From: Nocardioides jiangsuensis
Lineage (GTDB): Bacteria > Actinomycetota > Actinomycetes > Propionibacteriales > Nocardioidaceae
Direction: 5' to 3'
Assembly: GCF_019679455.1 (NCBI RefSeq)
Contig: NZ_JAIEZQ010000001.1
Span: 248,001 to 312,000, forward strand
Length of the DNA stretch: 64,000 bases
Positions 2,502 through 32,089 of this stretch are shown here, one piece after another (the first letter of the stretch is position 1; the number at the start of each line of letters is the position of its first letter). The position numbers and the translations under genes were made by a program. The notes below the pieces were generated by a model that ran no database searches, had not been told where the DNA came from, and saw only the letters and a list, made by a program, of their open reading frames with translations.

Positions 2502-3086
2502 ATGCCTGATGCCGAGCCGAGCGTCCCCTCACTGCTGCCGAGCGGCGGCACCGTCCGCCCGATCACCCGCTGGGGGTCGCCGGTGATGCACCGGACCCAG
2601 GAGCCGGTGACCGTCTTCGACGAAGAGCTGCGGACGCTCGCCGCGGACATGGTGGCCACGATGTACGCCGCCGACGGGGTCGGTCTGGCCGCCTGCCAGA
2701 TCGGCGTGGACCGCTCGATCTTCGTCTTCGACTGCCCCGACGAGCAGGGCGTGCACCACCAGGGCGTGGTCTGCAACCCCGAGCTGTTCCTCCCCGAGGG
2801 GCGCGACCGCCGGCTGGACGAGGACGACGAGGGCTGTCTGTCCCTGCCGGGCGCGTTCGTGGACTGCGCCCGGCCCGACTTCGCCCGGGTCGAGGGCCAG
2901 GACCTCGACGGGAGCCCGGTCAGCTACGGCGGACGGGGCCTGCTCGCCCGGTGCCTGCAGCACGAGACCGACCACTGCAGGGGCACGGTCTTCGGCGACC
3001 GGCTCGGGCGACGTGCCCGGAAGAAGCTGTTCAAGCAGGCCGACGACCTCGCCGACCGCTTCCCGGAGACCTGGCCCGCGACCTGA
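2502..3086 (+). CDS. def: peptide deformylase
   Basis: Removes the formyl group from the initiator methionine of nascent proteins (cytoplasm, Fe2+/Zn2+ enzyme). 194 aa. All three family motifs are visible: GVGLAACQIG near residue 59 (Cys where most enzymes have Pro or Asn), EGCLSLPG with the metal-binding Cys, and QHETDH with the two metal-binding His and catalytic Glu. Start placed at 2502 (MPDAEPSV) from the leaderless -10 box. It is divergent from the acyl-CoA dehydrogenases and convergent with the split trmH remnant. Confidence 0.95.
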   Translation: MPDAEPSVPSLLPSGGTVRPITRWGSPVMHRTQEPVTVFDEELRTLAADMVATMYAADGVGLAACQIGVDRSIFVFDCPDEQGVHHQGVVCNPELFLPEGRDRRLDEDDEGCLSLPGAFVDCARPDFARVEGQDLDGSPVSYGGRGLLARCLQHETDHCRGTVFGDRLGRRARKKLFKQADDLADRFPETWPAT

Positions 3087-3095
3087 CCGCGCGGG

Positions 3096-3510
3096 TCAGC
3101 GGCGGGCGACCACGTAGCAGGCCACCGCGGTCGCAGCCGCGACGTTGAGCGAGTCGACGCCGGCCGCCATGGGGATCACCGCGCGTACGTCGGCGGTCTC
3201 CATCCACCGGCGGGACAGCCCCGGCCCCTCCGAGCCCATCAGCAGGGCCACCCGGTCCCGTCCGGCGACGGCGTCCTCGATCTCGACGGCGTCGTCGGCC
3301 GGGGTCAGTGCGACGGTCGTGAAGCCCAGCCGCGACAGCGTCGTCACCCCGTCGTACCAGTCGTCCATCCGGGCGTAGGGGATCGTGAACACCGCGCCCA
3401 TCGCGACCTTGATCGACCGGCGGTACAGCGGGTCGGCGCAACGCGGCGAGAGCACGACCGCGTCCACGCCGAGGGCGGCCGCGCACCGGAAGATCGCGCC
3501 GACGTTTATG
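3096..3510 (-). pseudogene. stranded 3' half of trmH-family RNA methyltransferase
   Basis: Encodes the C-terminal SPOUT methyltransferase half: H-I-N-V-G-A-I-F-R, then SPRCADPLYRRSIKV, GSEGPGLS and IPMAAGVDSLNVAAATAVA, ending in a normal stop. No 5' half is attached; the frame meets a TGA at about 3532-3534. The missing N-terminal half lies 3.5 kb away at about 7043-7441, joined to a different, lower-GC copy of this same C-terminal half. Joining 7441-7043 to this remnant gives one continuous TrmH protein, so this is the original host 3' end displaced by island insertion. A GTG at 3467 could start a 123-aa fragment, but function is unlikely. Confidence 0.9.
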
Positions 3511-3515
3511 TGGTC
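3499..3515. repeat. island left attachment site (attL-like)
   Basis: CCGACGTTTATGTGGTC. Differs from the right copy only in the three central bases. The ATA codon it creates fits element DNA from about 3506 onward, so the crossover probably fell within CCGACGT (inference). Confidence 0.7.
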
Positions 3516-3606
3516 GAGTCGCGCAAATCAGATCCACTAGCCCGGGCACTCCATCCCCTACACTTCCTGAGGCGAATTCGAGCCATCGGTCGACCACGGA
3601 GGATCT

Positions 3607-5085
3607 GTGTCGGAGCACCAACATCTCCTCGAACAGTTGCGGCTACCGTCACGCTTCGAGTCACTTGTGGCTGCGATCGGCCCGGAAGTAGCCCAGATTT
3701 TGGTCGCACCGGAGGATCACGTACTCGATGTCTTTCGAGAGTGTGCGCTCCACATCAAGGCCCGGGGTAGGGGCTTGTTCCTTCCGCTTTACGCGCGCTC
3801 GGGCACCGGAAAGACCACCCTGGTCACCAGCGTCGGGTCCTGGCTGCCTGAGGAGTTCGGTCCTACGGCCCGCCTTGCCGGGGGTGACGTTTCTGCGGAT
3901 CGACTCCGGCAGATCGCGGAAGCACTGTCCGACGATCACGGTCTCCCGGCGAACGAGAAGCGTGTCTTGGTAATCAACGTCGATGACCGCGAGAGCGACC
4001 CTCCCTCGGATAAAGAATTGAGCCAGATCAAGTCGTTCCTGCGAGAGAACGGCGTGGGTTCACGTTCACTTGTTGTTTGGCCCGAGACCTCCTTAACGAC
4101 CGCGACGAAGATGGCAACTGACTTCGAGGAACGGGCCGGCAAGTCGCCTGTCTCGATCCCGGCGCGGGTCTCCGGACCGCCTATCGAGTCCTGGCAGGAC
4201 ACCGCCGTCGCGACCCTGAAACTAGTCAATGGCCTCGACAGCCTCGAGGAGTTGGGCGTCGACCCGCGGACTTACGACCCGTGCACCGAGAAGACATTGG
4301 GCGACTTCCTGGACCGGATCGGGAACGACTTCGTCGCTCTACTTGCCAAACTGCTGGCTGAAACCCGCAAGCCCTTGCGGGTAATCATCGGGATGGCCAG
4401 CGAGAGCGGAAAGGCTGGCGTACTCGGCGAACTGACCGGTAGTTCTCGTTATGGTTTCTTGGACGCGGATAAGTTGCTTGGAGCGACCCCCAACAGCGTT
4501 ATTGGGAAGTGGTGGTCGACTCGACGAGGCCTGCTTGTGCAGACCATCGTTCGGCTCGACGCGAGAATCGTGCACCTATCCCCATCCCTGACTGTGCCAG
4601 TCGTGAGGCGTTTCGGACCAGAAGCCGCATCGTCCGTGCTTGAGAAGCTGGGGATCAACTCCCGTCCGCCGAGTGACATCACCAACTACTTCGAGAGGGC
4701 CGATTTCGGCCGGCTACTGCTCGGTACGGATTCGGCGACCGCGGAGATCCGCGGGAATCCGGCGCACGATGCACGCGCAGCGTTCGAACTCCTTGCCGAG
4801 GACTACGGCTTCGGCTCAGGAAACGACAAGAAGCTCAACCAAGCGCTGGGCGACTACCTGACGCAGGGAAAGCCGGACCTGGGCGAGGTGTTCATCGAAA
4901 AGAAGTTGCCGTACATGCCTCTCATCCCCGACATAGCAATCGATACAGAAGAGCTTGTGACCGGCGTCGAGTTGCATTGGCGATCGGGCGACTTCTTGAC
5001 CACCGCGAACAGGTCAGAAATCGCGCAGTACACGCTCAGGAAGTTGAAGGCCTACGCCATCGAGTCCGGGTGGGCATCCGACTAG
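3607..5085 (+). CDS. P-loop ATPase of unknown family, putative island defence effector
   Basis: I do not recognise the family. 492 aa, GTG start preceded by GGAGG 4 nt upstream. Walker A is ARSGTGKTTL near residue 63, and a Walker B-like RVLVINVDDRE lies near residue 118. The middle is alpha/beta without further known motifs. The C-terminal 50 residues hold PDIAID, then VELHWRSGDF and a helix AQYTLRKLKAYA. The PD…E-x-H spacing resembles a degenerate PD-(D/E)xK nuclease core (inference, weak). No membrane segment or signal peptide. It is the first and largest cargo gene, with less GC-rich codons than the flanks. Position beside a C-protein and an Ltp lipoprotein suggests an anti-phage role, unproven. 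Confidence 0.7.
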   Translation: MSEHQHLLEQLRLPSRFESLVAAIGPEVAQILVAPEDHVLDVFRECALHIKARGRGLFLPLYARSGTGKTTLVTSVGSWLPEEFGPTARLAGGDVSADRLRQIAEALSDDHGLPANEKRVLVINVDDRESDPPSDKELSQIKSFLRENGVGSRSLVVWPETSLTTATKMATDFEERAGKSPVSIPARVSGPPIESWQDTAVATLKLVNGLDSLEELGVDPRTYDPCTEKTLGDFLDRIGNDFVALLAKLLAETRKPLRVIIGMASESGKAGVLGELTGSSRYGFLDADKLLGATPNSVIGKWWSTRRGLLVQTIVRLDARIVHLSPSLTVPVVRRFGPEAASSVLEKLGINSRPPSDITNYFERADFGRLLLGTDSATAEIRGNPAHDARAAFELLAEDYGFGSGNDKKLNQALGDYLTQGKPDLGEVFIEKKLPYMPLIPDIAIDTEELVTGVELHWRSGDFLTTANRSEIAQYTLRKLKAYAIESGWASD

Positions 5086-5103
5086 CCGTGTGATCGCAGG
5101 CCG

Positions 5104-5436
5104 CTACTCATCTGATGCTCTGCCCCGCCCGTACGGGTCAGCCTCGTCCCAACGACTCCGGAGGATTCGGAGTTCGTCGTTCGCTCGGTCTAGCTTCCGG
5201 CGCAACAGATCGAGGTGCTCGACAACATCGCTGGCCTCGCGGCGCAGCGGTGCGGCCCGCCGGATGGCCGACCGCGCACGCTGAAACGCCATGGAGCAGT
5301 CTTCGAGAGCGGCGTGCACTTGGCGCGCGTCCTCTGGAGTTAGCCTCGCGCGATTCTCAGCCCACAAGCGCCTACGCGCCGCGATGCGGGCGCGTACCTG
5401 GTCGATGGCATCTTCGAGGGGATGCCTTGTGGACAT
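5104..5436 (-). CDS. small charged coiled-coil protein under C-box control
   Basis: 110 aa, rich in Arg, Glu, Ala and Leu with heptad-like stretches (VEHLDLLRRKLDRANDELRI). Predicted alpha-helical coiled coil, cytoplasmic, no known domain. The ATG at 5436 directly abuts the C-box operator. On its strand TAGACT lies 8 nt before the ATG, so it is probably leaderless and controlled by the divergent C protein. It is convergent with the P-loop ATPase gene, 18 bp apart. Function unknown; an antitoxin or partner of the ATPase is possible (speculation). Confidence 0.65.
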   Translation of the reverse strand: MSTRHPLEDAIDQVRARIAARRRLWAENRARLTPEDARQVHAALEDCSMAFQRARSAIRRAAPLRREASDVVEHLDLLRRKLDRANDELRILRSRWDEADPYGRGRASDE

Positions 5437-11102: not shown

Positions 11103-11900
11103 GTGCTGTACGCCGCGATCGCCGCGCGTGCCTTCCGGCGCTACTCGACGTACACCGCGGCCACCCTGGCCGGCATCTTCACCAACTGCGTCTTCGGCGC
11201 GATCATCACCTTCGCCTACATCGCCGTCTGGAGGCAGAACCCGACCGCCGGCGGGTACGACGTCACCGACGCCGTGACCTACGTGTGGCTGGGCCAGGCG
11301 ATGATCATGACCGTCGCGGTGTGGAACGGCGGCGCCACCGACGACCTCGCGGCCCGGATCCGCACCGGCGACGTCGCGATCGACCTGTACCGGCCGGTGA
11401 GCTTCCTCGGCTGGTGGCTGGCCTCGGACCTCGGCCGCGCACTGTTCCACCTGCTGACCCGGGGCGTCGCGCCCACCCTGGTCGGCGGGCTGCTGTTCGA
11501 CCTGCGCTACCCCGCGGGGCTCACGGCCTGGCTGCTGTTCGCGGTCTCGGTGCCGCTGGCGGTGGTGGTCAGCTTCGCGATCCGGATGCTGGTCAGCGCG
11601 AGCGCGTTCTGGCTGCTCGACGACACCGGTGTGCGCAACCTCCAGGCGGTGTTCGCGATGTTCTTCTCCGGGCTCGTGGTGCCGCTGGTGATCTTCCCCG
11701 GCTGGACCCGCGACCTCGCGATGGCGCTGCCCTGGGCGTCCTACCTCCAGGTGCCGGCCGACATCTGGCTCGGCCAGCGGACCGGCGTCGACGCGCTCGC
11801 AGGACTCGGCTTCCAGGTCCTCTGGGCCGGCGTGCTGCTCGCCATGTGCGCGGCAGTGCTCCGGCTCGCGCAGCGCAAGGTGGTGGTCCACGGTGGCTAG
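11103..11900 (+). CDS. ABC-2 type transporter permease (first of pair)
   Basis: 265-aa integral membrane protein with about six hydrophobic segments, of the uncharacterised ABC-2 permease group that occurs as a permease-permease-ATPase triad. GTG at 11103 preceded by AGGGGG. The stop overlaps the next start by 8 bp, so the three genes at 11103-13733 form one operon. Substrate unknown; such triads resemble drug or polysaccharide exporters. Confidence 0.88.
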   Translation: MLYAAIAARAFRRYSTYTAATLAGIFTNCVFGAIITFAYIAVWRQNPTAGGYDVTDAVTYVWLGQAMIMTVAVWNGGATDDLAARIRTGDVAIDLYRPVSFLGWWLASDLGRALFHLLTRGVAPTLVGGLLFDLRYPAGLTAWLLFAVSVPLAVVVSFAIRMLVSASAFWLLDDTGVRNLQAVFAMFFSGLVVPLVIFPGWTRDLAMALPWASYLQVPADIWLGQRTGVDALAGLGFQVLWAGVLLAMCAAVLRLAQRKVVVHGG

Positions 11901-12783
11901 CCCCACGACGCGGACGGCCCCGAGCACAGGCCCGGCACCGACGCCGGCCCCTGCCCCGCTGCGCCGGCTCGGCGGCAACCTGCGCTGGGGCTTCCGCGCC
12001 TACGGCCTGCTCGCGCTGATGTGGATCCGGGTGTCCTTCACCTACCGCACGTCGTTCGTGCTGCTCACCCTCGGGCAGCTGTTCATCACCGCGCTGGACT
12101 TCGTCGCGATCGTCATCATGTTCGCCAACGTCGACGTGCTCGGCGGGTTCGGCCTGGCGGAGATCGCCTTCCTGTACGGCGGCTCGAGCCTCTGTCTCGG
12201 GCTGGCCGACCTGGCCCTCGGCAACATCGAGCGGCTCGGCAACCGGATCCGGATGGGAACCTTCGACGCGATGATGGTGCGCCCGGTCCCGTTGTTCGCC
12301 CAGGTCTGCGCCGACGAGTTCGCGCTGCGCCGCCTGGGCCGGATCGCGCAGGCGGCCGCCGTGCTCACCTGGGCCACCGCGAGCGTGGACGTCGACTGGA
12401 CCGTGGGCCGGGCGCTGATGGTGCCCTACCTGGTGGCGTGCGGCACCGTGATCTTCCTGGCCATCTTCACGCTCGGGGCCGCGCTGCAGTTCTGGACCAC
12501 CGACGGGTCCGAGGCCGCGAACGCGTTCACCTACGGCGGCAGCACGCTCACCCAGTACCCGCTGACGATCTACCCGGTGGAGGCGGTCAAGGCGCTGACG
12601 TTCATCGTCCCGGTCGCCTTCGTCAACTGGTACCCCGCGCTCTACATCCTCGACCGGCCCGACCCGTTCGGGCTCCCCGCCGCGCTCCAGTTCTCCTCCC
12701 CGGTGGCCGGCCTCGCACTCTGCCTGCTGGCGGGCCTGGCCTGGCGCACCGGTGTCCGCCGCTACCGATCGACGGGAAGCTAG
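11893..12783 (+). CDS. ABC-2 type transporter permease (second of pair)
   Basis: 296 aa with a Pro/Ala/Thr-rich cytoplasmic N-terminus of about 30 residues and six hydrophobic segments. GTG start at 11893 within the end of the first permease gene. Partner of 11103-11900 and of the ATPase that follows after 2 bp. Confidence 0.88.
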
Positions 12784-12785
12784 CC

Positions 12786-13733
12786 ATGTCACTGATCGAG
12801 GTCACCGACCTGTCCCGCACGTTCGAGGTGCGCCGGAAGGTCTCCCGGTTCCGCCGCGAGGTGCACGAGGTCCGCGCGGTCGACCACCTGTCGTTCGCGG
12901 TGGGGGCCGGCGAGATGGTCGGCTACATCGGCCCGAACGGCGCCGGGAAGTCCACGACGATCAAGATGCTCACCGGCATCCTCGTGCCCTCCTCCGGGTC
13001 GCTGTCGGTGGCGGGCATCGACCCGTCGCGGAACCGGGTGGAGCTCACGCGGCGGATCGGCGTGGTCTTCGGGCAGCGCACCACGCTCTGGTGGGACCTG
13101 CCGCTGCGCGACTCCTTCGAGCTGCTGCGCCGGATCTACCGCATCGACCGGGACCGCTACCGGCGCAACCTTGCGGAGTTCACCGAGCTGCTCGAGCTCG
13201 GCGACCTGCTCGACACCCCGGTCCGGCAGCTGTCGCTGGGCCAGCGGATGCGCGGCGACATCGCGGCGGCCCTGCTGCACGACCCGGAGATCCTCTACCT
13301 GGACGAGCCGACGATCGGGCTCGACGTGGTGAGCAAGGGCCGGCTGCGGGAGTTCCTGCGCACGCTCAACGCGGAGCGCGGGGTCACCCTGCTGCTCACC
13401 ACGCACGACCTGCAGGACATCGAGCAGCTGTGCTCGCGGGTGATGGTGATCGACCACGGGTTCCTGGTCTTCGACGGGTCGCTCGAGCTGCTGCACGAGC
13501 GGGGTGGGTCGACCCGGACGCTGGTGGTGGACCTCGTCGACGAGGCCCCGCCGATCGACGTACCGGGGGCGGAGGTGCGCAAGGTGGAGGGCCCGCGGCA
13601 GTGGCTGTCGTTCCCGGCCAAGGCGAGCGCAGCCCCCGTGGTGGCGGCGGTCGCGGCGTCGTACGACGTGGCGGACCTGTCCATCACCGAGCCCGCGATC
13701 GAGGACGTGATCCGGGCGATCTACACGCGGTAG
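12786..13733 (+). CDS. ABC transporter ATP-binding protein
   Basis: 315 aa. Walker [12 protein letters not shown]-loop [14 protein letters not shown], signature [19 protein letters not shown], Walker [13 protein letters not shown] and the H-loop TTHD. The extended C-terminal domain (from about residue 245) is typical of the ATPases that pair with two ABC-2 permeases. Energises the exporter encoded just upstream. Confidence 0.92.
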
Positions 13734-24307: not shown

Positions 24308-24452
24308 CGAGGAGTACCGCAGGCCGGGCCCGGCCTTCCTCCCGGCCGACGACCTGCCGCCCTCGGTGCTCGCGCTCGCCTGGGACCCGCGCCGTACGAC
24401 GGACGCCGCGACCCGGCTCGCCCGTCTCGCCGGCAGCCGGCGCGAGAGCTAG
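24308..24452 (+). pseudogene. possible 3' remnant of a LysR-type regulator
   Basis: About 48 codons ending in TAG (EYRRPGPAFLPADDLPPSVL then ALAWDPRRTTDAATRLARLA) resemble the last strands of LysR effector domains, where a P-L-D-D-x-P-P…LAW pattern is common. No HTH or upstream portion exists. The call is by pattern only. Confidence 0.3.
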
Positions 24453-24961
24453 CCGCGGCCGACGTAGAAGTCGACCAGCCGGCCGGTCTCGGGGCCGAGC
24501 TCGGCCCAGGGCACCTCCACCTCGAGCACGGCCAGGCATCCGGGCGGGTACCCCTGGAGCAGCTGGGCCTGCGCGTCCGGCTCTCCCTCCCCGTCCTCGA
24601 GCAGGTGCGCGAGGTAGGCCACGGTCGGGTTGTGCCCCACGAAGATCACCGTCCCGGCCGACTCCGGCACCGCGCTCAGCGCCTCCATCACGACGTCGGG
24701 GCTGCCGGTGTACGTCGCGTCGTCGAACACCGGCCCGAGGTCCGAGCCGGCCCCCTCGGCCACCGCGGCCCAGGTCTCCCGGGCGCGCTTCGCCGAGGAG
24801 ACCAGCGCGTGGTCGGGCAGCATGGAGCGCTCGGCGAGGTGGCGTCCCGCGTCGGCGGCGTCCTTCCTGCCGCGCTCCGTGAGGACCCGGTCGTGGTCCG
24901 TGGTCGCGAACGGCTCGGCCTTCGCGTGCCGCATGAGGATGAGTCGCCGCCGGTTGGTCAC
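24449..24961 (-). CDS. SixA-like histidine phosphatase
   Basis: 170 aa, histidine-phosphatase superfamily, small SixA type. Catalytic LILMRHAKAE (phospho-accepting His 12), SSAKRARETW, and the second His in VGHNPTVAYL. Substrate could be a phosphohistidine protein or a small phosphoester. GTG at 24961 chosen at the family's usual N-terminus. Divergent from cphB with only 34 bp between starts. Confidence 0.85.
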   Translation of the reverse strand: MTNRRRLILMRHAKAEPFATTDHDRVLTERGRKDAADAGRHLAERSMLPDHALVSSAKRARETWAAVAEGAGSDLGPVFDDATYTGSPDVVMEALSAVPESAGTVIFVGHNPTVAYLAHLLEDGEGEPDAQAQLLQGYPPGCLAVLEVEVPWAELGPETGRLVDFYVGRG

Positions 24962-24982
24962 GAGCCCCACTTTCTCACCACG

Positions 24983-24988
24983 TAGGCT
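24983..24988 (+). promoter_or_regulatory. leaderless -10 box of cphB
   Basis: TAGGCT, 7 nt before ATG 24996. Confidence 0.55.
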
Positions 24989-24995
24989 GCCCTGC

Positions 24996-26012
24996 ATGCC
25001 GAATGGACTCGATGAGCAGGATGCAGCCGCGGACAGGGATCCGCAGCCCGGCGTCACCCCAGGACCCGGACCGCTGATGGCCATCGGAGGCGCGGAGGAC
25101 AAGCTCGGGAAGCGCACCGTGCTGGCCTCCTTCGTCGAGCACGCGGGCGGTGAGCACGCCCGGATCGCGGTGGTGCCGACCGCCTCGTCGCTCGGCCCGG
25201 AGGTCGTCGAGGTCTACGACGCGCTCTTCCGCAAGCTCGGCGCCGCGGACGTCATCGCCGCACGGCCGGAGACCCGCGAGGAGGCCAACGACCCCGGGCT
25301 CGTCGCCCGGCTCGACACCGTGACCGGCATCTTCATGACCGGCGGAAACCAGCTGAAGCTGTCCGCGGTGATCAGCGGGACCGCGTTCGGCGACGCGATC
25401 AAGGCCGCCCACGAGCGCGGCGTCGTGGTCGCCGGCACCTCCGCCGGCGCCAGCATCCAGTCCTCGCACATGGTGGCCTTCGGCCCCGGCGGCCAGACCC
25501 CCAAGCAGCGGATGACCCAGGTCGCCGCCGGGCTCGGCCTCGTCGACAGCTGCGTGATCGACCAGCACTTCGGCCAGCGCAACCGGTACGGTCGGCTGCT
25601 GATGATCGTCGCGCAGAGCCCCAGCCTCCTCGGCATCGGCGTCGACGAGGACACCGCCGCCGTGATCACCCACACCGGCGGCGAGGACCTGCTCACCGTC
25701 GAGGGCCGCGGAGCGGTCACCATCTTCGACGGCCGCGCGATCGTGTCCAACGCCCACGAGGCCCGCAAGACCGCACCGCTGCTGGCCTCCGGCGTGGTGA
25801 TGCACGTCCTGCCGGAGGGCTCGGTGTTCGACCTCACCGAGCGCCGCCTGGTCCGCCAGCAGGCCGAGGTCGACCCTTCCGAGGCCGAGGAGCTCGCGGT
25901 TGCGGGCCGGGACCTCAGACGCTTGGCTCGTGACATCGCCGCGGGCGACGTGTCCCCCACCCAGCTGCGCCGCCGCCGCGCCCGTCAACACCCCGAAGGA
26001 GAGCGTGCATGA
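24996..26012 (+). CDS. cphB: cyanophycinase
   Basis: 338 aa, peptidase S51 family, cleaves cyanophycin (poly-Asp with Arg side chains) to beta-Asp-Arg. LMAIGGAEDK opening, MTGGNQLKL, nucleophile elbow AGTSAGASIQ, and DQHFGQRNRYGRL. No signal peptide, so it acts in the cytoplasm. The C-terminal 50 residues are Arg-rich. Its stop overlaps the cphA start (ATGA): degradation and synthesis genes form one coupled operon. Confidence 0.93.
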   Translation: MPNGLDEQDAAADRDPQPGVTPGPGPLMAIGGAEDKLGKRTVLASFVEHAGGEHARIAVVPTASSLGPEVVEVYDALFRKLGAADVIAARPETREEANDPGLVARLDTVTGIFMTGGNQLKLSAVISGTAFGDAIKAAHERGVVVAGTSAGASIQSSHMVAFGPGGQTPKQRMTQVAAGLGLVDSCVIDQHFGQRNRYGRLLMIVAQSPSLLGIGVDEDTAAVITHTGGEDLLTVEGRGAVTIFDGRAIVSNAHEARKTAPLLASGVVMHVLPEGSVFDLTERRLVRQQAEVDPSEAEELAVAGRDLRRLARDIAAGDVSPTQLRRRRARQHPEGERA

Positions 26013-28804
26013 CCGAGCAGGTCCGTCCCGCCACCCGCCCGTCGCCCGACCTGGCCATCCTGGAGACCCGCGTCTACCGGGGCGCCAACGTCTGGTCCTA
26101 CGACAAGGCGATCCACCTCGTGGTCGACCTGGGCTCACTGGAGGACTTCCCCACCAACACGCTGCCGGACTTCACCGACAACCTGCTGCAGATGCTCCCG
26201 GGCCTGCGTGAGCACTCGTGCTCCCGCGGCCGCCGCGGCGGGTTCGTCGAGCGCCTGAACGAGGGCACCTGGCTCGGCCATGTCGCCGAGCACATCGCGC
26301 TGTCGCTGCAGCAGGTCGTCGGCCACGACATCCGCCGCGGCAAGACCCGCTCGGTCAAGGGGCAGCGCGGCCGCTACAACGTCATCTACGGGTACGTCGA
26401 CGAGCAGGTCGGGATCGCGGCGGCCCGGCTCGCCGTACGCCTGGTCAACCACCTGGTGCAGGCCGACCCGGAGTTCGACTTCGAGGCCGAGCTCGAGCAG
26501 TTCATCCTCCGCGCCGAGCGCACCGCCTTCGGGCCCTCGACGCAGGCGATCCTCGACGAGGCCGTCTCCCGCGACATCCCCTGGATCCGGCTGAACAAGC
26601 ACTCGCTCGTGCAGCTCGGCCAGGGCGTGCACCAGAAGCGGATCCGCGCCACGATGACCTCGGCGACCAGCGCGATCGCGGTCGACGTGGCCTCCGACAA
26701 GGACCTCACCACCCGGCTGCTCGGCGCCGCCGGCCTCCCCGTCCCGAAGCAGGAGTCGGTGCGCACCGCCGACCAGGCCGTCGCGGTCGCGAACCGGATC
26801 GGCTACCCCGTGGTCTGCAAGCCGCTCGACGGCAACCACGGCCGCGGCGTGTGCCTGGACCTCCAGGACGCCGACGACGTCCGCGCCGCCTTCCCGGTCG
26901 CGCAGGACCAGTCGCGCCGCGGCTGGGTCATCGTCGAGTCGTTCATCACCGGCCGCGACTACCGCTGCCTGATCATCGACGGCAAGCTCGCCGCGGTCGC
27001 CGAGCGCGTGCCCGCGCACGTGGTCGGCGACGGGCACAGCACCGTCGAGCAGCTCGTCGAGCTCACCAACGCCGACCCGCGCCGCGGCGTGGGGCACGAG
27101 AAGGTGCTCACCCGGATCAAGGTCGACGACGCCGCGGTCGGGCTGCTCGCCGACCAGGGCTACAAGCTCGGGGACGTCCCGCCGGCCGGCGAGATGGTGA
27201 AGCTGACCCTGACGGGCAACATGTCGACCGGCGGCATCTCCATCGACCGCACCTTCGAGGCGCACCCGGAGAACGTCGAGATCGCCGAGGAGGCGGCCCG
27301 CGTGATCGGGCTCGACATCGCCGGCATCGACTTCATCTGTCCCGACATCACCGAGCCGGTCCGCGAGACCGGCGGCGCAATCTGCGAGGTCAACGCCGCC
27401 CCCGGCTTCCGGATGCACACGCACCCGACCATCGGCGACCCGCAGTTCATCTCCAAGCCGGTGGTGGACATGCTCTTCCCGCCGGGCGCCGCGAGCCGGA
27501 TCCCGATCGTCGCGGTCACCGGCACCAACGGCAAGACCACCACCTCGCGGATGATCTCCCACATCTTCAAGGGGATGGGTCGCAAGGTCGGGATGACCTC
27601 CACCGACGGCGTGGTCATCGACGAGCGGCTCGTGATCCGCGCCGACGCCTCGGGCCCGAAGTCGGCCCGGATGGTGCTGCAGAACCCCCGCGTGGACTTC
27701 GCGGTGTTCGAGGTGGCCCGCGGCGGCATCCTGCGCGAGGGCCTCGGCTACGAGCGCAACGACGTCGCGGTGGTGCTCAACGTGCAGCCCGACCACCTCG
27801 GCCTGCGCGGCATCGACACCGTCGAGCAGCTCGCCGACGTCAAGGCCGTCCTGGTCGAGGCCGTGCCGCGCGACGGCCACGCGGTGCTCAACGCCGACGA
27901 CCCGCTGGTGCGGGAGATGCGGCGACGCTGCTCGGGCCAGGTGGTCTGGTTCAGCATGGAGGAGCCCGGCTCCGAGGCCCGCGAGATGATCGACAAGCAC
28001 TGCCGCCGCGGCGGCAAGGCCCTGGTCCTCGAGCCCAGCGAGCGCGGCGAGATGATCGTGGTCAAGCACGGCCGCCGTGAGATGCAGCTGGCCTGGACCC
28101 ACCTGCTGCCGGCCACGTTCGGCGGCCGGGCCCGGATGAACGTGCAGAACACCCTGGCCGCGGCGGCTGCGGCGTTCGCCTCCGGCGCCCCGCTGCACGA
28201 CATCCGGCAGGGCCTCCGGTCGTTCTCGACGAACTACTACCTCTCCCCCGGCCGGCTCAACGAGGTGGAGGTCAACGGCACCCACGTGATCGTCGACTAC
28301 TGCCACAACGCCCCGGGCATGCGGATGCTCGGCGACTTCGTGGACCGGGTCGGTGAGTCGCTGAGCAGCACGAGCGAGCTGGGCAAGCCGTCCCGGATCG
28401 GCGTGATCGCCACCGCGGGCGACCGCCGCGACGACGACATGCGCGAGCTCGGGTCGGTCGCCGCCCAGCACTTCGACGTGCTCGTGGTCCGCGAGGACGT
28501 CGCCCTGCGCGGCCGGGATCGGGGTCAGACCGCCGAGCTGGTCGCCGAGGGCGTCCGGTCGGCGATCGCGGACGGTGCCCGCTGCCGGCAGGTCGAGGTC
28601 ATCCACGAGGAGATCGAGGCCGTGCACCACGCGATGTCGCGGGCCAACCCCGGCGACCTCGTCGTCCTGTGCGTCGACAAGCACTCCGCGGTGATGGGCG
28701 AGCTGGAGAGCTGGTCCAAGCAGGCCCAGGCCGGGTCCGGCCCGGACGACACCACGGTCGGCGACCCGGACTTCAGCCCGCCGAGCCCTCCCGCGCAGCC
28801 TTGA
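26009..28804 (+). CDS. cphA: cyanophycin synthetase
   Basis: 931 aa, non-ribosomal polymerisation of Asp and Arg into the storage polymer cyanophycin. N-terminal CphA-specific domain (residues 1-210, ILETRVYRGANVWSYDKAIH), ATP-grasp domain about 220-485 (ATTRLLG-type glycine loop, VCKPLDGNHGRGVCLDL, AICEVNAAPGFRMH), then the Mur ligase-like domain with VTGTNGKTTTSRM near residue 505, VARGGILREGLGY and VIVDYCHNAPGM. Both catalytic halves look intact. Tail-to-tail overlap of 32 bp with the CphA-like gene on the other strand. Confidence 0.95.
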   Translation: MTEQVRPATRPSPDLAILETRVYRGANVWSYDKAIHLVVDLGSLEDFPTNTLPDFTDNLLQMLPGLREHSCSRGRRGGFVERLNEGTWLGHVAEHIALSLQQVVGHDIRRGKTRSVKGQRGRYNVIYGYVDEQVGIAAARLAVRLVNHLVQADPEFDFEAELEQFILRAERTAFGPSTQAILDEAVSRDIPWIRLNKHSLVQLGQGVHQKRIRATMTSATSAIAVDVASDKDLTTRLLGAAGLPVPKQESVRTADQAVAVANRIGYPVVCKPLDGNHGRGVCLDLQDADDVRAAFPVAQDQSRRGWVIVESFITGRDYRCLIIDGKLAAVAERVPAHVVGDGHSTVEQLVELTNADPRRGVGHEKVLTRIKVDDAAVGLLADQGYKLGDVPPAGEMVKLTLTGNMSTGGISIDRTFEAHPENVEIAEEAARVIGLDIAGIDFICPDITEPVRETGGAICEVNAAPGFRMHTHPTIGDPQFISKPVVDMLFPPGAASRIPIVAVTGTNGKTTTSRMISHIFKGMGRKVGMTSTDGVVIDERLVIRADASGPKSARMVLQNPRVDFAVFEVARGGILREGLGYERNDVAVVLNVQPDHLGLRGIDTVEQLADVKAVLVEAVPRDGHAVLNADDPLVREMRRRCSGQVVWFSMEEPGSEAREMIDKHCRRGGKALVLEPSERGEMIVVKHGRREMQLAWTHLLPATFGGRARMNVQNTLAAAAAAFASGAPLHDIRQGLRSFSTNYYLSPGRLNEVEVNGTHVIVDYCHNAPGMRMLGDFVDRVGESLSSTSELGKPSRIGVIATAGDRRDDDMRELGSVAAQHFDVLVVREDVALRGRDRGQTAELVAEGVRSAIADGARCRQVEVIHEEIEAVHHAMSRANPGDLVVLCVDKHSAVMGELESWSKQAQAGSGPDDTTVGDPDFSPPSPPAQP

Positions 28805-30473
28805 CCTTCACGCGCAGGGTGTCGGGGTCGTCGACCGTGAAGCCCTGCGCGGCCAGCCAGTCGTAGACGCCCTGGCGGTCCTCGTGGCACATCAGCCCCA
28901 CCACGTCACCGGGTCGGGCCTGGGCCACGAGGGCCTCGAGGCCGGCGACCTCGGTCGGGTACGACGGCACGTCGGTCACCCCGACCCGGGCCGCACCGGC
29001 GCGGAACAGCGCGTCGAGCTCGTCGGTGGTGCGCCCGCGCAGGTAGCCCGCCTTGTGCGCGACCGCCACCACGTCGGCGTCGCGGGCGCCCATCTCGCCG
29101 AGCCGGTCGACGAGGTCGTCGGTGCGGTCGCCCACGGCGCCGAGGCCGAGCAGCAGCCGGCAGCCGGGGCGCCGTACGCCGTTCATGATCTCGGTGAGCG
29201 CCTCGAGCCCGGCCTCGTTGTGCGCGAGGTCGACCACGACGCTCACGTCCTCGCGGGAGAAGAAGTTCATGCGGCCCGGGTTGTGCTGCGGGTCCGGCCG
29301 GAACGTGGTGAGCCCCTCTCGCACCACCTCGCGTGACAGGCCCACCGCCAGCGCGGCCGAGGCAGCGGCGAGCGCGTTCTCCACGTTGAACCGGGACAGC
29401 CCGGCCAGGGTCATCGGGATGTCGACGACCTCGACGATCGGGTCGGGGTCGCCGTCGGCGGTGAGCACGCTCAGCCAGCCGTCGATGACCGTGGTGGCCC
29501 GGCCGCCCTCGCTCAGCACCTCGCGCACGGCGGGCGAGTCGGGGTCGCGGGAGAACACCCAGGGCCGGGCGCGCAGCGTCGTACGCATGGCGAGCACCCG
29601 GGGATCGTCGGCGTTGAGCACCGCCCAGCCGTCGGCGCGGGTGATCCGCGGGACCACGCCCTTGACCTCGGCGAGCTGGTCGAGGGTGTCGATGCCGTGC
29701 AGCCCGAGGTGGTCGGCGGAGACGTTGGTGACCACGGAGACGTTGTTGTAGGCCAGGCCGATGCCCTTGAGCAGGATGCCGCCGCGGGCGGTCTCGGTGA
29801 CCGCGAGCTCGACCTCCTTGTGCGCGAGGACCCTCCCCGCGCCGCTCGGGCCGGAGTAGTCACCGGGCTCGACCAGGACCCCGTCGACGTAGATCCCGTC
29901 GGTGCTCGACCAGCCCACGTGCATGCCCTGGGTGCGCGCGATGTGCGCGACCATCCGCGAGGTGGTGGTCTTGCCGTTGGTGCCGGTGATCGCGACCACG
30001 GGCACCTTCGGCTTCAGCGTCGTGGGCCCGGGGCCCGGCTCGGACTCCCGGACCTTCCGTGCCGCTTCGTCCACCAGGCCCTCGAGGTCGGCGGTGGGCA
30101 GCGCGTCGAGCACCTCGGCGACGGCCCGGCCGAGCGCCTGCGCACGCAGCCGGTTGCGCCACGGGTAGGCGACCACGATCCGGTGCACGTCGTTCGTGGT
30201 GCGCACCCGCACGCCGAGCCGGCTGGTGCCGGCCTCGACGGCGACCGCCCGCACCAGGCGGGCCACCGCGCGGGTGGCGAACCGCTGCCGGAACCCGGTG
30301 CCCGCAGCCCCGGGACGGGCCTTGGTCAGGCCGATCCGCGAGGCGAACCGGGAGGCCCGGGCCTCGTCGGCCTCGACCAGGCCGGTCAGGTCCAGCGTCA
30401 GCTTGATCGCTGCGCGCGGGAAGTAGAGGTTGGGCCCCTCGAGGACCCGGAGCTCGACGAGTGAGGAAGACAC
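28773..30473 (-). CDS. CphA-like Mur ligase lacking the ATP-grasp domain
   Basis: 566 aa. Residues 1-155 resemble the N-terminal domain of CphA (LRVLEGPNLYFPRAAIKLTL compares with ETRVYRGANVWSYDKAIHLV). The chain then goes straight to a Mur ligase domain: ITGTNGKTTTSRM near residue 165, TARGGILLKGIGLAYNNV, SADHLGLHGIDT, and VVVDLAHNEAG. The ATP-grasp domain that adds Asp in CphA is absent, so it cannot by itself make cyanophycin. It may ligate an amino acid to an Asp-containing acceptor or to a cyanophycin product (inference). Convergent with, and overlapping, cphA. Confidence 0.85.
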   Translation of the reverse strand: MSSSLVELRVLEGPNLYFPRAAIKLTLDLTGLVEADEARASRFASRIGLTKARPGAAGTGFRQRFATRAVARLVRAVAVEAGTSRLGVRVRTTNDVHRIVVAYPWRNRLRAQALGRAVAEVLDALPTADLEGLVDEAARKVRESEPGPGPTTLKPKVPVVAITGTNGKTTTSRMVAHIARTQGMHVGWSSTDGIYVDGVLVEPGDYSGPSGAGRVLAHKEVELAVTETARGGILLKGIGLAYNNVSVVTNVSADHLGLHGIDTLDQLAEVKGVVPRITRADGWAVLNADDPRVLAMRTTLRARPWVFSRDPDSPAVREVLSEGGRATTVIDGWLSVLTADGDPDPIVEVVDIPMTLAGLSRFNVENALAAASAALAVGLSREVVREGLTTFRPDPQHNPGRMNFFSREDVSVVVDLAHNEAGLEALTEIMNGVRRPGCRLLLGLGAVGDRTDDLVDRLGEMGARDADVVAVAHKAGYLRGRTTDELDALFRAGAARVGVTDVPSYPTEVAGLEALVAQARPGDVVGLMCHEDRQGVYDWLAAQGFTVDDPDTLRVKVKAAREGSAG

Positions 30474-30514: not shown

Positions 30515-31285
30515 TCAGGCCCCCATCGCGTGGTAGCCGCCGTCGACGTGCACGATCTCGCCCGTCGTCGCCGGGAAGAAGTCCGAGAGCAGGGCCACGA
30601 CGGCCTTCGCCGTCGGCTCGTGGTCCTTCTCGTCCCAGCCGAGGGGCGCGCGGTCGCTCCACATGGACTCGAGCTCCTCGAAGCCCGGGATCGCCTTCGC
30701 CGCCAGCGTCTTGAGCGGGCCCGCGGACACGAGGTTGACCCGGATGCCCTGGGGGCCGAGGTCCCGGGCGAGGTAACGCGAGCAGGACTCCAGCCCCGCC
30801 TTGGCGACGCCCATCCAGTCGTACGCCGGCCACGCGACGGTCGCGTCGAAGGTCATCCCGACCACCGAGCCGCCCGAGCCCATCAGCGGCAGGCAGGCGT
30901 TGGAGAGCGAGGCCAGGGAGTACGCCGACACCTGCACGGCCTGCGCCACGTCCGGCCACGGGCCGGTGAGGAACTTGCCGCCGAGCAGCGTCTCGGGGTT
31001 GCCGTAGGCGATCGAGTGCACGACCCCGTCGAGCCCGTCCACGTGCTCGCGGAGCAGCTCGGGGAGCCGGTCGAGGTGCTCCTGGTCGGTGACGTCGAGC
31101 TCGACCACCGGCGTCTCCTTGGGGAGCCGGCTCACGATCCGCTTGGTGATGCCCAGCGCGCGCCCGAAGTTGGAGACCACGACCGTGGCCCCCTGCTCCT
31201 GCGCCACGCGCGCCACCGCGAACCCGATGGAGGTGTCCATCGTGACGCCGGCGACCAGGATCCGCTTCCCGTCCAGAATGCCCAT
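30515..31285 (-). CDS. fabI: enoyl-ACP reductase (FabI/InhA type)
   Basis: NADH-dependent reduction of trans-2-enoyl-ACP in fatty-acid elongation. 256 aa, atypical short-chain dehydrogenase: GVTMDTSIGFAVA coenzyme loop, VHSIAYGNP, catalytic Tyr and Lys in YDWMGVAKAGL (Y-x6-K), and SAGPLKTLAA. 99 bp downstream of fabG in the order of the mycobacterial fabG1-inhA operon, so this is the probable isoniazid-target homologue. Confidence 0.95.
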   Translation of the reverse strand: MGILDGKRILVAGVTMDTSIGFAVARVAQEQGATVVVSNFGRALGITKRIVSRLPKETPVVELDVTDQEHLDRLPELLREHVDGLDGVVHSIAYGNPETLLGGKFLTGPWPDVAQAVQVSAYSLASLSNACLPLMGSGGSVVGMTFDATVAWPAYDWMGVAKAGLESCSRYLARDLGPQGIRVNLVSAGPLKTLAAKAIPGFEELESMWSDRAPLGWDEKDHEPTAKAVVALLSDFFPATTGEIVHVDGGYHAMGA

Positions 31286-31384: not shown

Positions 31385-32089
31385 TCAGTGGCCCATGCCG
31401 AGGCCGCCGTCGACGGGGATCACCGCGCCGGTCACGTAGGCGGCGCCGTCCGAGGCGAGCCACACGACCGTGGAGGCGACCTCGTCGGAGGTGGCGTAGC
31501 GCCCCAGCGGGATCTGCGCCTTGTACTCCGCCTTCTTCTCCTCCGGCAGGACCTCGGTCATCTCGGTCTCGACGAAGCCGGGGGCGACCACGTTCGCGGT
31601 GATCGAGCGGCTGCCCAGCTCGCGCGCGAGCGAGCGGGCCATCCCGACCAGGCCGGACTTGCTGGCCGCGTAGTTGACCTGGCCGGCCGAGCCGAGCATG
31701 CCGACCACGGAGGAGATGAAGACGATCCGTCCGCGACGCAGCCGCAGCATGCCCTTCGCGGCGCGCTTGGCGACCCGGAACGAGCCGGTCAGGTTGGTGT
31801 CGATGACCGAGGACCACTCGTCGTCGCTCATCCGGAGCACGAGGGTGTCCTTGGTGATCCCGGCGTTGGCGACGAGCACCTCGACCGGGCCCTGCTTCTC
31901 CTCGATCTCGGCGAACGCGGCGTCCACCGCGGCGGCGTCGGTGACGTCGCACTGCACCGCGAGGAAGCCCTCGGGCGGCTCGCCGCTGCGGTAGGTGATC
32001 GCCACCTGGTCGCCCGCGGCCTTGAACGCCTCCGCGATGGCGCGGCCGATGCCGCGGTTTCCGCCGGTCACCAGAACCGATCTGCTCAC
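31385..32089 (-). CDS. fabG: 3-oxoacyl-ACP reductase
   Basis: NADPH-dependent reductase of fatty-acid synthesis, 234 aa, short-chain dehydrogenase. TGGNRGIGRAIAE, ANAGITKD, catalytic Ser in ISSVVGM, YAASKSG with catalytic Tyr and Lys, and VAPGFVETEMT. GTG at 32089 with GAGAGGG upstream. First gene of a fabG-fabI unit. Confidence 0.95.
   Translation of the reverse strand: MSRSVLVTGGNRGIGRAIAEAFKAAGDQVAITYRSGEPPEGFLAVQCDVTDAAAVDAAFAEIEEKQGPVEVLVANAGITKDTLVLRMSDDEWSSVIDTNLTGSFRVAKRAAKGMLRLRRGRIVFISSVVGMLGSAGQVNYAASKSGLVGMARSLARELGSRSITANVVAPGFVETEMTEVLPEEKKAEYKAQIPLGRYATSDEVASTVVWLASDGAAYVTGAVIPVDGGLGMGH

Follow-up and report, generated by a model that had tools for sequence, protein, structure and literature searches.

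A cphA-linked Mur ligase of the cyanophycin synthetase type without an ATP-grasp domain in Nocardioides jiangsuensis and other Actinomycetota

What does a second, shorter relative of cyanophycin synthetase do beside a complete cphA gene? The question is raised by a stretch of 64,000 nucleotides from Nocardioides jiangsuensis (assembly GCF_019679455.1, contig NZ_JAIEZQ010000001.1, positions 248,001 to 312,000; hereafter the window), in which a reverse-strand gene overlaps the end of a full-length cphA by 32 bases, tail to tail as the original prediction had described. Its product, called NM here, joins an N domain of the CphA type (N) to a Mur-ligase domain (M) and lacks the ATP-grasp domain (G) that intervenes in CphA. 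Cyanophycin, which stores nitrogen, is of interest for industry and wastewater, and in the parts of the literature available to us its synthesis is described as the work of a single enzyme, CphA1, or CphA2 for recycled dipeptides. We conclude that NM is a real and conserved ligase of the cyanophycin system that is probably active. Our tentative proposal, which falls a little short of an even chance, is that NM is an ATP-dependent ligase dedicated to this system that would act on the polymer with a donor other than arginine.

The architecture foreseen in the original prediction, a CphA-like N domain with an intact Mur ligase and no ATP-grasp module, is borne out by Pfam, by hidden Markov models (HMMs), by hhalign and by the predicted structure. 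Pfam places Mur_ligase_M at residues 162-374 of NM and Mur_ligase_C at residues 400-527. A Pfam scan of the whole protein found no ATP-grasp family in it, and an HMM built from the CphA G domain gave no match. The best NCBIfam match is cyanophycin synthetase (TIGR02068), confined to the M part of the model (positions 476-854) and scoring 383.8 bits, below the curated cut-off of 850 bits; an HMM built from CphA M domains scores 379 bits. Pfam PF18921 does not detect the N domain, and an HMM from CphA N domains matches it weakly (18 bits, residues ~4-125); profile-profile comparison with hhalign aligns it with CphA N domains over 123 columns with a probability of 94.7% and an E value of 6e-8. 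Its GPNLY loop aligns with the GxN(Y/W/L) of CphA. According to the available text of PMC9262961, a hydrophobic loop of the CphA N domain that carries Tyr14 and Ile17 touches the M domain, and we read the GPNLY loop as the likely equivalent of this contact. The same text describes a zinc site, Cx19HxxEH, in the CphA N domain. Sequence comparison finds this site in the CphA of the window and not in the N domain of NM; a primer-making N domain in NM is ruled out, as there is no HxxEH.

The catalytic residues Lys168, Thr169, Glu227, Asp254, His255, Lys271, Asp415, His418, Asn419 and Gly448-Asp449-Arg450 are invariant in 25 of 25 NM sequences, which disfavours a degenerate pseudo-enzyme. The structure of the window NM was predicted with AlphaFold2 from an alignment with 29 other rows that included M-only CphA rows; an alignment in which the CphA rows were full length put the N domains in the wrong place and was kept out of the folding. 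The model has a predicted local distance difference test score (pLDDT) of 94.0 and a predicted template modelling score (pTM) of 0.91. Its best solved matches in Foldseek are CphA1 chains, with TM-scores of up to 0.81 of the query, and VIA-align superposes it on the CphA1 chain 7wae_A from residue 3 onwards with Z 53.9 and a root-mean-square deviation of 3.0 over 522 residues, against Z 33.0 over 332 residues for the best MurE chain. In the model the N and M domains are placed relative to each other as in CphA1, despite the missing intervening G domain. Structure prediction and active-site comparison with CphA together give a CphA-like model in which the catalytic residues are kept. NM might still be imagined as a non-catalytic partner or regulator that pairs with CphA through its M core; such pairing is conceivable, yet the invariance of ATP, Mg and catalytic residues in all 25 sequences makes this role very improbable.

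The position of NM was examined in a careful tree of 88 M domains, comprising 49 CphA, 25 NM, nine other ligases in which the G domain is absent or degenerate, and five MurE or MurD rows. Near-identical CphA sequences, NM sequences beyond the 25 and CphA pieces at locus ends were omitted, and two open reading frames (ORFs) intended as a MurF outgroup were unused, having no P-loop match. Four of the five outgroup rows scan as MurE and MurD, and the fifth (L008) is identical to L005 in the columns kept. NM forms a single group with support of 98/98. A branch of 51 rows, supported at 100/98, contains the 49 CphA and two degenerate relatives from Deinococcus and Duganella, and all 25 NM lie outside it together with the other ligases that have no G domain. 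This position makes it unlikely that NM arose lately by truncation of cphA, and on this tree an origin by recent G-domain loss in a cphA copy was rejected. A quick tree enlarged by 12 CphA rows also has NM as one group; its deep branching is open, and the Duganella CphA does not join the CphA branch there. The available text of PMC11915815 describes CphA as an ATP-grasp part fused to a Mur part, and NM may descend from the unfused Mur side of that ancestry, with a root that rests on the long MurE and MurD branches. Because the root rests on these branches, an NM lineage older than CphA is only suggested.

The same tree bears on whether NM is a peptidoglycan or folate ligase that stands beside cphA by chance. 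MurE, MurC, MurD and FolC share the Mur fold, and Mur ligases carry a UDP-binding N domain. NM, however, reaches only 89.7 bits against the murE model TIGR01085 (cut-off 257.3), is also far under the folC cut-off in NCBIfam, and is separated from the MurE and MurD rows at 98/99; NM and cphA are, moreover, absent together. The scan scores and this separation led us to reject a peptidoglycan ligase, the grouping with peptidoglycan Mur ligases that would have undone the original prediction was not seen, and a chance neighbour of either kind is barely credible.

Searches with NM at E 1e-30 covered 245 genomes of the family, 293 of the order, 394 of the class and 296 of the phylum, in sets that overlap, and matched 83, 99, 37 and 22 genomes, respectively. 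These amount to 168 distinct Actinomycetota genomes (83, then 45, 21 and 19 new), and NM is present, whole or in part, in 159 of them; the family includes 81 genomes besides that of the window with an NM-type match, at 64-83% identity. Two or more matches were obtained in 158 of the 159 NM genomes, with a CphA-type row among the matches listed for at least 132 and the number of matches alone as the indication for 26. In G984, the last of the 159, a fragment of cphA adjoins NM at the end of a contig, and NM without cphA was not seen in this set. Co-occurrence with cphA thus holds in nearly all matching genomes. Nine of the 168 have a CphA-type match and no NM (G118, G275, G424, G447, G464, G546, G672, G687 and G755), and in G118 and G275 cphA is near a contig end. 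Genomes with no match to NM were not searched with CphA, and a far-diverged CphA could escape.

The order fabG-fabI-NM, facing cphA, recurs in all eight named loci among the matches listed (Ornithinimicrobium, four Nocardioides including metagenome-assembled genomes (MAGs), a Micrococcales MAG, Terrabacter and a Propionibacteriaceae MAG), and cphB then follows cphA in seven of them, the eighth locus being cut. Among 14 chosen genomes the spacing between serB and fabI is 6.1 and 6.4 kb in two with NM; in the nine without NM in which both genes were found it is 0.5 to 1.8 kb in eight and 7.3 kb in G026, and three other genomes gave no fabI match. In the serB-fabI stretch of the same-genus genome G001, the only part of that genome in which cphB was looked for, cphA, NM and the cyanophycinase portion of cphB all gave no match; the stretch holds DNA like the histidine phosphatase gene of the window, and homology to the window resumes at its fabI end. 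The genes cphB, cphA and NM therefore appear to form a cassette beside fabI, in which the cph genes are gained and lost together. The 7.3 kb fabI-serB stretch of G026 speaks against this picture, as it has no match to cphA, NM or cyanophycinase. Overall, the link between NM and cyanophycin is strong. A new step in cyanophycin metabolism is well supported, because NM stands apart from MurE and MurD, co-occurs with cphA and is the reverse of CphA2.

To ask which amino acid such a step might use, residues of the M domain were compared in 48 CphA, 25 NM and seven other ligases without a G domain, with the Duganella pair and the Deinococcus row set apart. The ATP and catalytic residues are the same across all three, and NM retains the acceptor-side motif GDx(S/T)GP; the differences lie elsewhere. 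At the D890 site (numbering of the window CphA) 44 of 48 CphA have Asp or Glu and none of the 25 NM has an acid (His in 17, Leu in 7, Pro in 1), and at the D830 site an acid is found in 44 of 48 CphA and is missing from 20 of 25 NM. The lid loop is one residue longer in NM than in CphA. Tyr477 occurs in 25/25 NM and 7/7 of the other ligases but only 3/48 CphA, Gly211 in 25/25 and 7/7 but 0/48, and Arg533 in 22/25 and 6/7 but 0/48; Leu478 is found in all NM, but also in 25/48 CphA. The lid sites of NM align with the DNPR loop and the C-terminal GKGHE stretch of MurE, which we take, from MurE structures, to be amino-acid contacts.

Could NM simply repeat the reaction of the CphA M domain, placing Arg (or Lys) on bare Asp side chains as a helper or repair enzyme? 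The fold is that of CphA, the ATP and acceptor-side motifs are nearly the same, and the lid residues Arg479, Gly480 and Arg481 are common to both (25, 23 and 24 of 25 NM; 47, 47 and 44 of 48 CphA). A minority of NMs also keep an acid near the loop. Set against this are the loss of the D890-site acid throughout NM and of the D830-site acid in most, the longer loop, and the separate deep group, which argues for a role distinct from that of CphA; we consider a repeat of the arginine step unlikely. The pattern of the presumed pocket would fit a second ligase that uses some donor besides arginine. Its changes seem to point away from arginine, but the minority of NMs that have acids close to the loop blur the argument from charge. 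The earlier suggestion that NM ligates another amino acid is thus favoured by the pocket comparison, and the donor, like the acceptor, is something that we infer.

In the mechanism that we propose for a non-arginine donor, the N domain of NM would rest against the M domain of the same chain, as it does in CphA, and would probably hold the polymer, without a zinc peptidase site. The M domain would bind ATP like that of CphA and phosphorylate an aspartate side-chain carboxyl, most likely that of the C-terminal Asp added by the CphA G domain, and would join an amino acid other than arginine to that Asp. NM would in this way work in trans to CphA, and the product would be a mixed or end-modified cyanophycin.

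NM might instead act on a small soluble compound, either free Asp or beta-Asp-Arg released by cyanophycinase, to give a primer, a capped dipeptide or another product. The presence of cphB after cphA in seven of the eight named loci would fit such a substrate, and in the absence of a G domain the enzyme would not have to meet the growing chain. NM nevertheless keeps an N domain, and the N domain of CphA binds polymer and makes primers according to the available text of PMC9262961; the window CphA, moreover, has the Cx19HxxEH motif of primer-independent enzymes, so that a primer maker is unneeded. We regard action on a small compound as clearly improbable. Recycling of beta-Asp-Arg, one of the roles first suggested, is disfavoured because CphA2 repolymerises this dipeptide without a working M domain and NM has no G domain.

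Several observations weigh against a dedicated ligase with a non-arginine donor. Seven of the matched genomes lack NM and have a CphA that does not lie near the end of a contig. At the D830 site five of 25 NM have Glu, and at the neighbouring position 473 an acid occurs in nine of 25 NM and in all seven of the other ligases without a G domain. The placement of D830 and D890 in the amino-acid pocket is itself presumed from the MurE alignment and from MurE structures. Across 97 CphA rows the D830 site is Asp or Glu in 89, and the eight rows without the acid are three from one actinobacterial family (f14), one of two planctomycete copies, two from Legionella and two of Halomonas type, in which the acid is perhaps shifted; the Legionella and Halomonas-type enzymes have no known second ligase. 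Two Tetrasphaera MAGs are described in the available text of PMC10687191 as having two serial copies of cphA, of which the longer shows the higher expression; the shorter and less expressed copy is probably NM. Finally, conserved neighbours may also reflect common descent.

In family f14 all three genomes (G424, G447 and G464; loci L178, L180 and L182) are without NM and have two full-length CphAs, one of which lacks the D830 acid. In this altered CphA PSRIS, PSSLS or PSLVN replaces REDRN-type letters, and the lid pair ED becomes S(R/S/L). Another divergent CphA group without NM comes from actinobacterial genomes of 6.0 to 9.4 Mb (family f20; L175, L176 and L177), and in the quick tree it forms a long branch near Bacillota rows.

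Ligases without a G domain, annotated as Mur ligase family proteins, also adjoin cphA in the Proteobacteria Shinella, Ruegeria, Lysobacter and Cysteiniphilum, on a Roseateles-labelled plasmid and in Plesiocystis (Myxococcota). Like NM, they have no G-domain match and share the YLRG loop with its extra length, Tyr477 and Gly211; unlike NM, they lie on the same strand as cphA and have a very divergent N-terminal part. Identity with NM is 32-39% in the rows compared. NM and the other seven are apart in the free tree, and a single clade of them is not rejected by the AU test (p 0.185; L166 and L051 omitted). The Lysobacter ligase was modelled with a pLDDT of 85.1, some of the N-terminal third being poor, and the model matches CphA1 with Z 37.8 over 555 residues. 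The CphAs beside five of these ligases cluster separately inside the CphA branch (100/100). The CphA of G672 joins that group in the quick tree, yet no ligase without a G domain occurs in its 13-kb stretch, and another such ligase, L106, has no cphA within its 19.9-kb stretch; both count against the cassette picture.

It is a doubtful conjecture that most producing Actinomycetota make cyanophycin with two ligases: CphA would build the Asp-Arg chain, and NM, of a stand-alone lineage split off before the CphA M domains diversified, would add to it a second residue that is not arginine. Proteobacteria and Myxococcota would have a like solution, and in one actinobacterial family NM would be replaced by a second CphA whose pocket is altered.

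Other arrangements were observed alongside these. In the proteobacterial and myxococcal ligases without a G domain that adjoin cphA in L049, L073, L074, L100, L102 and L147, the stretch before the M domain resembles, by eye, the start of an ATP-grasp domain, a hint that the G domain was lost there. The CphA relatives in L051 (Deinococcus, 3011-5215, + strand) and L166 (Duganella, 11268-13370, - strand) combine a strong M domain with a G domain that is degenerate (27 and 31 bits). Paired cphA genes in beta- and gammaproteobacterial loci (L128, L133, L135, L142, L148 and similar) consist of an upstream copy with a shortened M domain, followed by a full copy; the five upstream copies named are open frames of 726-819 codons, a kind of second copy different from NM.

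The features of the window are given in Table 1. The boundary of the NM M core was set where its alignment to the CphA chain 7wac_A stops, the lid not being seen in 7wac_A. The start of cphB was set later than that of its mechanical ORF (24630..26012), and is approximate, because the TIGR02069 match begins only at residue 149 and the front part of the ORF (24630-25117) is antisense to the histidine phosphatase gene.

Table 1. Features of NM and its neighbourhood, in window coordinates
Feature	Position	Strand	Basis and remarks
NM (CphA-type N domain and complete Mur-ligase domain, without ATP-grasp)	28773..30473	-	566 aa, GTG start; ORF and domain scans
NM N domain, residues ~1-150, homologous to CphA N domain	30024..30473	-	Sequence alignment
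NM M-domain P-loop TGTNGKTTT, residues 163-171	29961..29987	-	Sequence
NM M core, residues ~151-393	29295..30023	-	Structure alignment
NM M lid, residues ~394-566, presumed amino-acid pocket within	28776..29294	-	Structure and sequence alignment
NM HKAGYLRGR loop, residues 473-481	29031..29057	-	Alignment; one residue longer than CphA EDVALRGR loop
NM/cphA tail-to-tail overlap, 32 bases	28773..28804	.	ORF coordinates
cphA, full-length cyanophycin synthetase	26009..28804	+	931 aa, with N-domain motif Cx19HxxEH; domain scans
cphB, cyanophycinase	25074..26012	+	TIGR02069; start approximate
Histidine phosphatase gene, cassette border on serB side	24449..25117	-	Maximal ORF
fabI/inhA, ends 41 bases upstream of NM	30515..31285	-	NCBIfam; same strand as NM
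fabG-like short-chain dehydrogenase gene, upstream of fabI	31385..32089	-	ORF and scan

No description of a CphA-like protein without a G domain, the architecture of NM, was found in the literature searched, most subscription journals being outside its reach. A survey of cph genes (PMC10206079) contains neither 'Mur ligase' nor 'domain' in its available text, and that of PMC9123174 notes cphA and cphB in former Tetrasphaera. In wastewater actinobacteria NM has probably been taken for another copy of cphA, shorter than the first, to judge from the available text of PMC10687191, and surveys of cphA may need a domain check. Residues described as alternatives in recombinant polymer are Lys, Orn, Cit and Glu (available text of PMC8050183), and NM could account for polymers that carry other side chains, or make them possible. 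With a third gene travelling with cphB and cphA through a phylum, the pathway as drawn may be incomplete. If the conjecture of two ligases is true, the storage polymer would have a natural variant that is undescribed so far, and there would be a glimpse of how CphA was assembled. NM, with its single active site, is an enzyme ready for assay.

Among known systems NM most resembles CphA1 (7WAE, 7LGQ and 7LG5), with which it shares the fold and mutual placing of the N and M domains, the ATP site and the DH, DxAHN, GDR and RGR motifs; it differs in having no ATP-grasp G domain and no Cx19HxxEH in the N domain, in its altered lid and in its separate group in the tree. MurE and the other Mur ligases share the Mur fold and ATP chemistry with NM, whereas the CphA-type N domain, the linkage to cphA and the separate position in the tree are features of NM. 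Cyanobacterial CphA2 is, like NM, a relative of CphA in which one of the two synthetic activities is missing. The activity missing is, however, the opposite one: CphA2 lacks the P-loop and lid of the M domain according to the available text of PMC9427784, and NM retains both, in agreement with the original view of NM as the reverse of CphA2.

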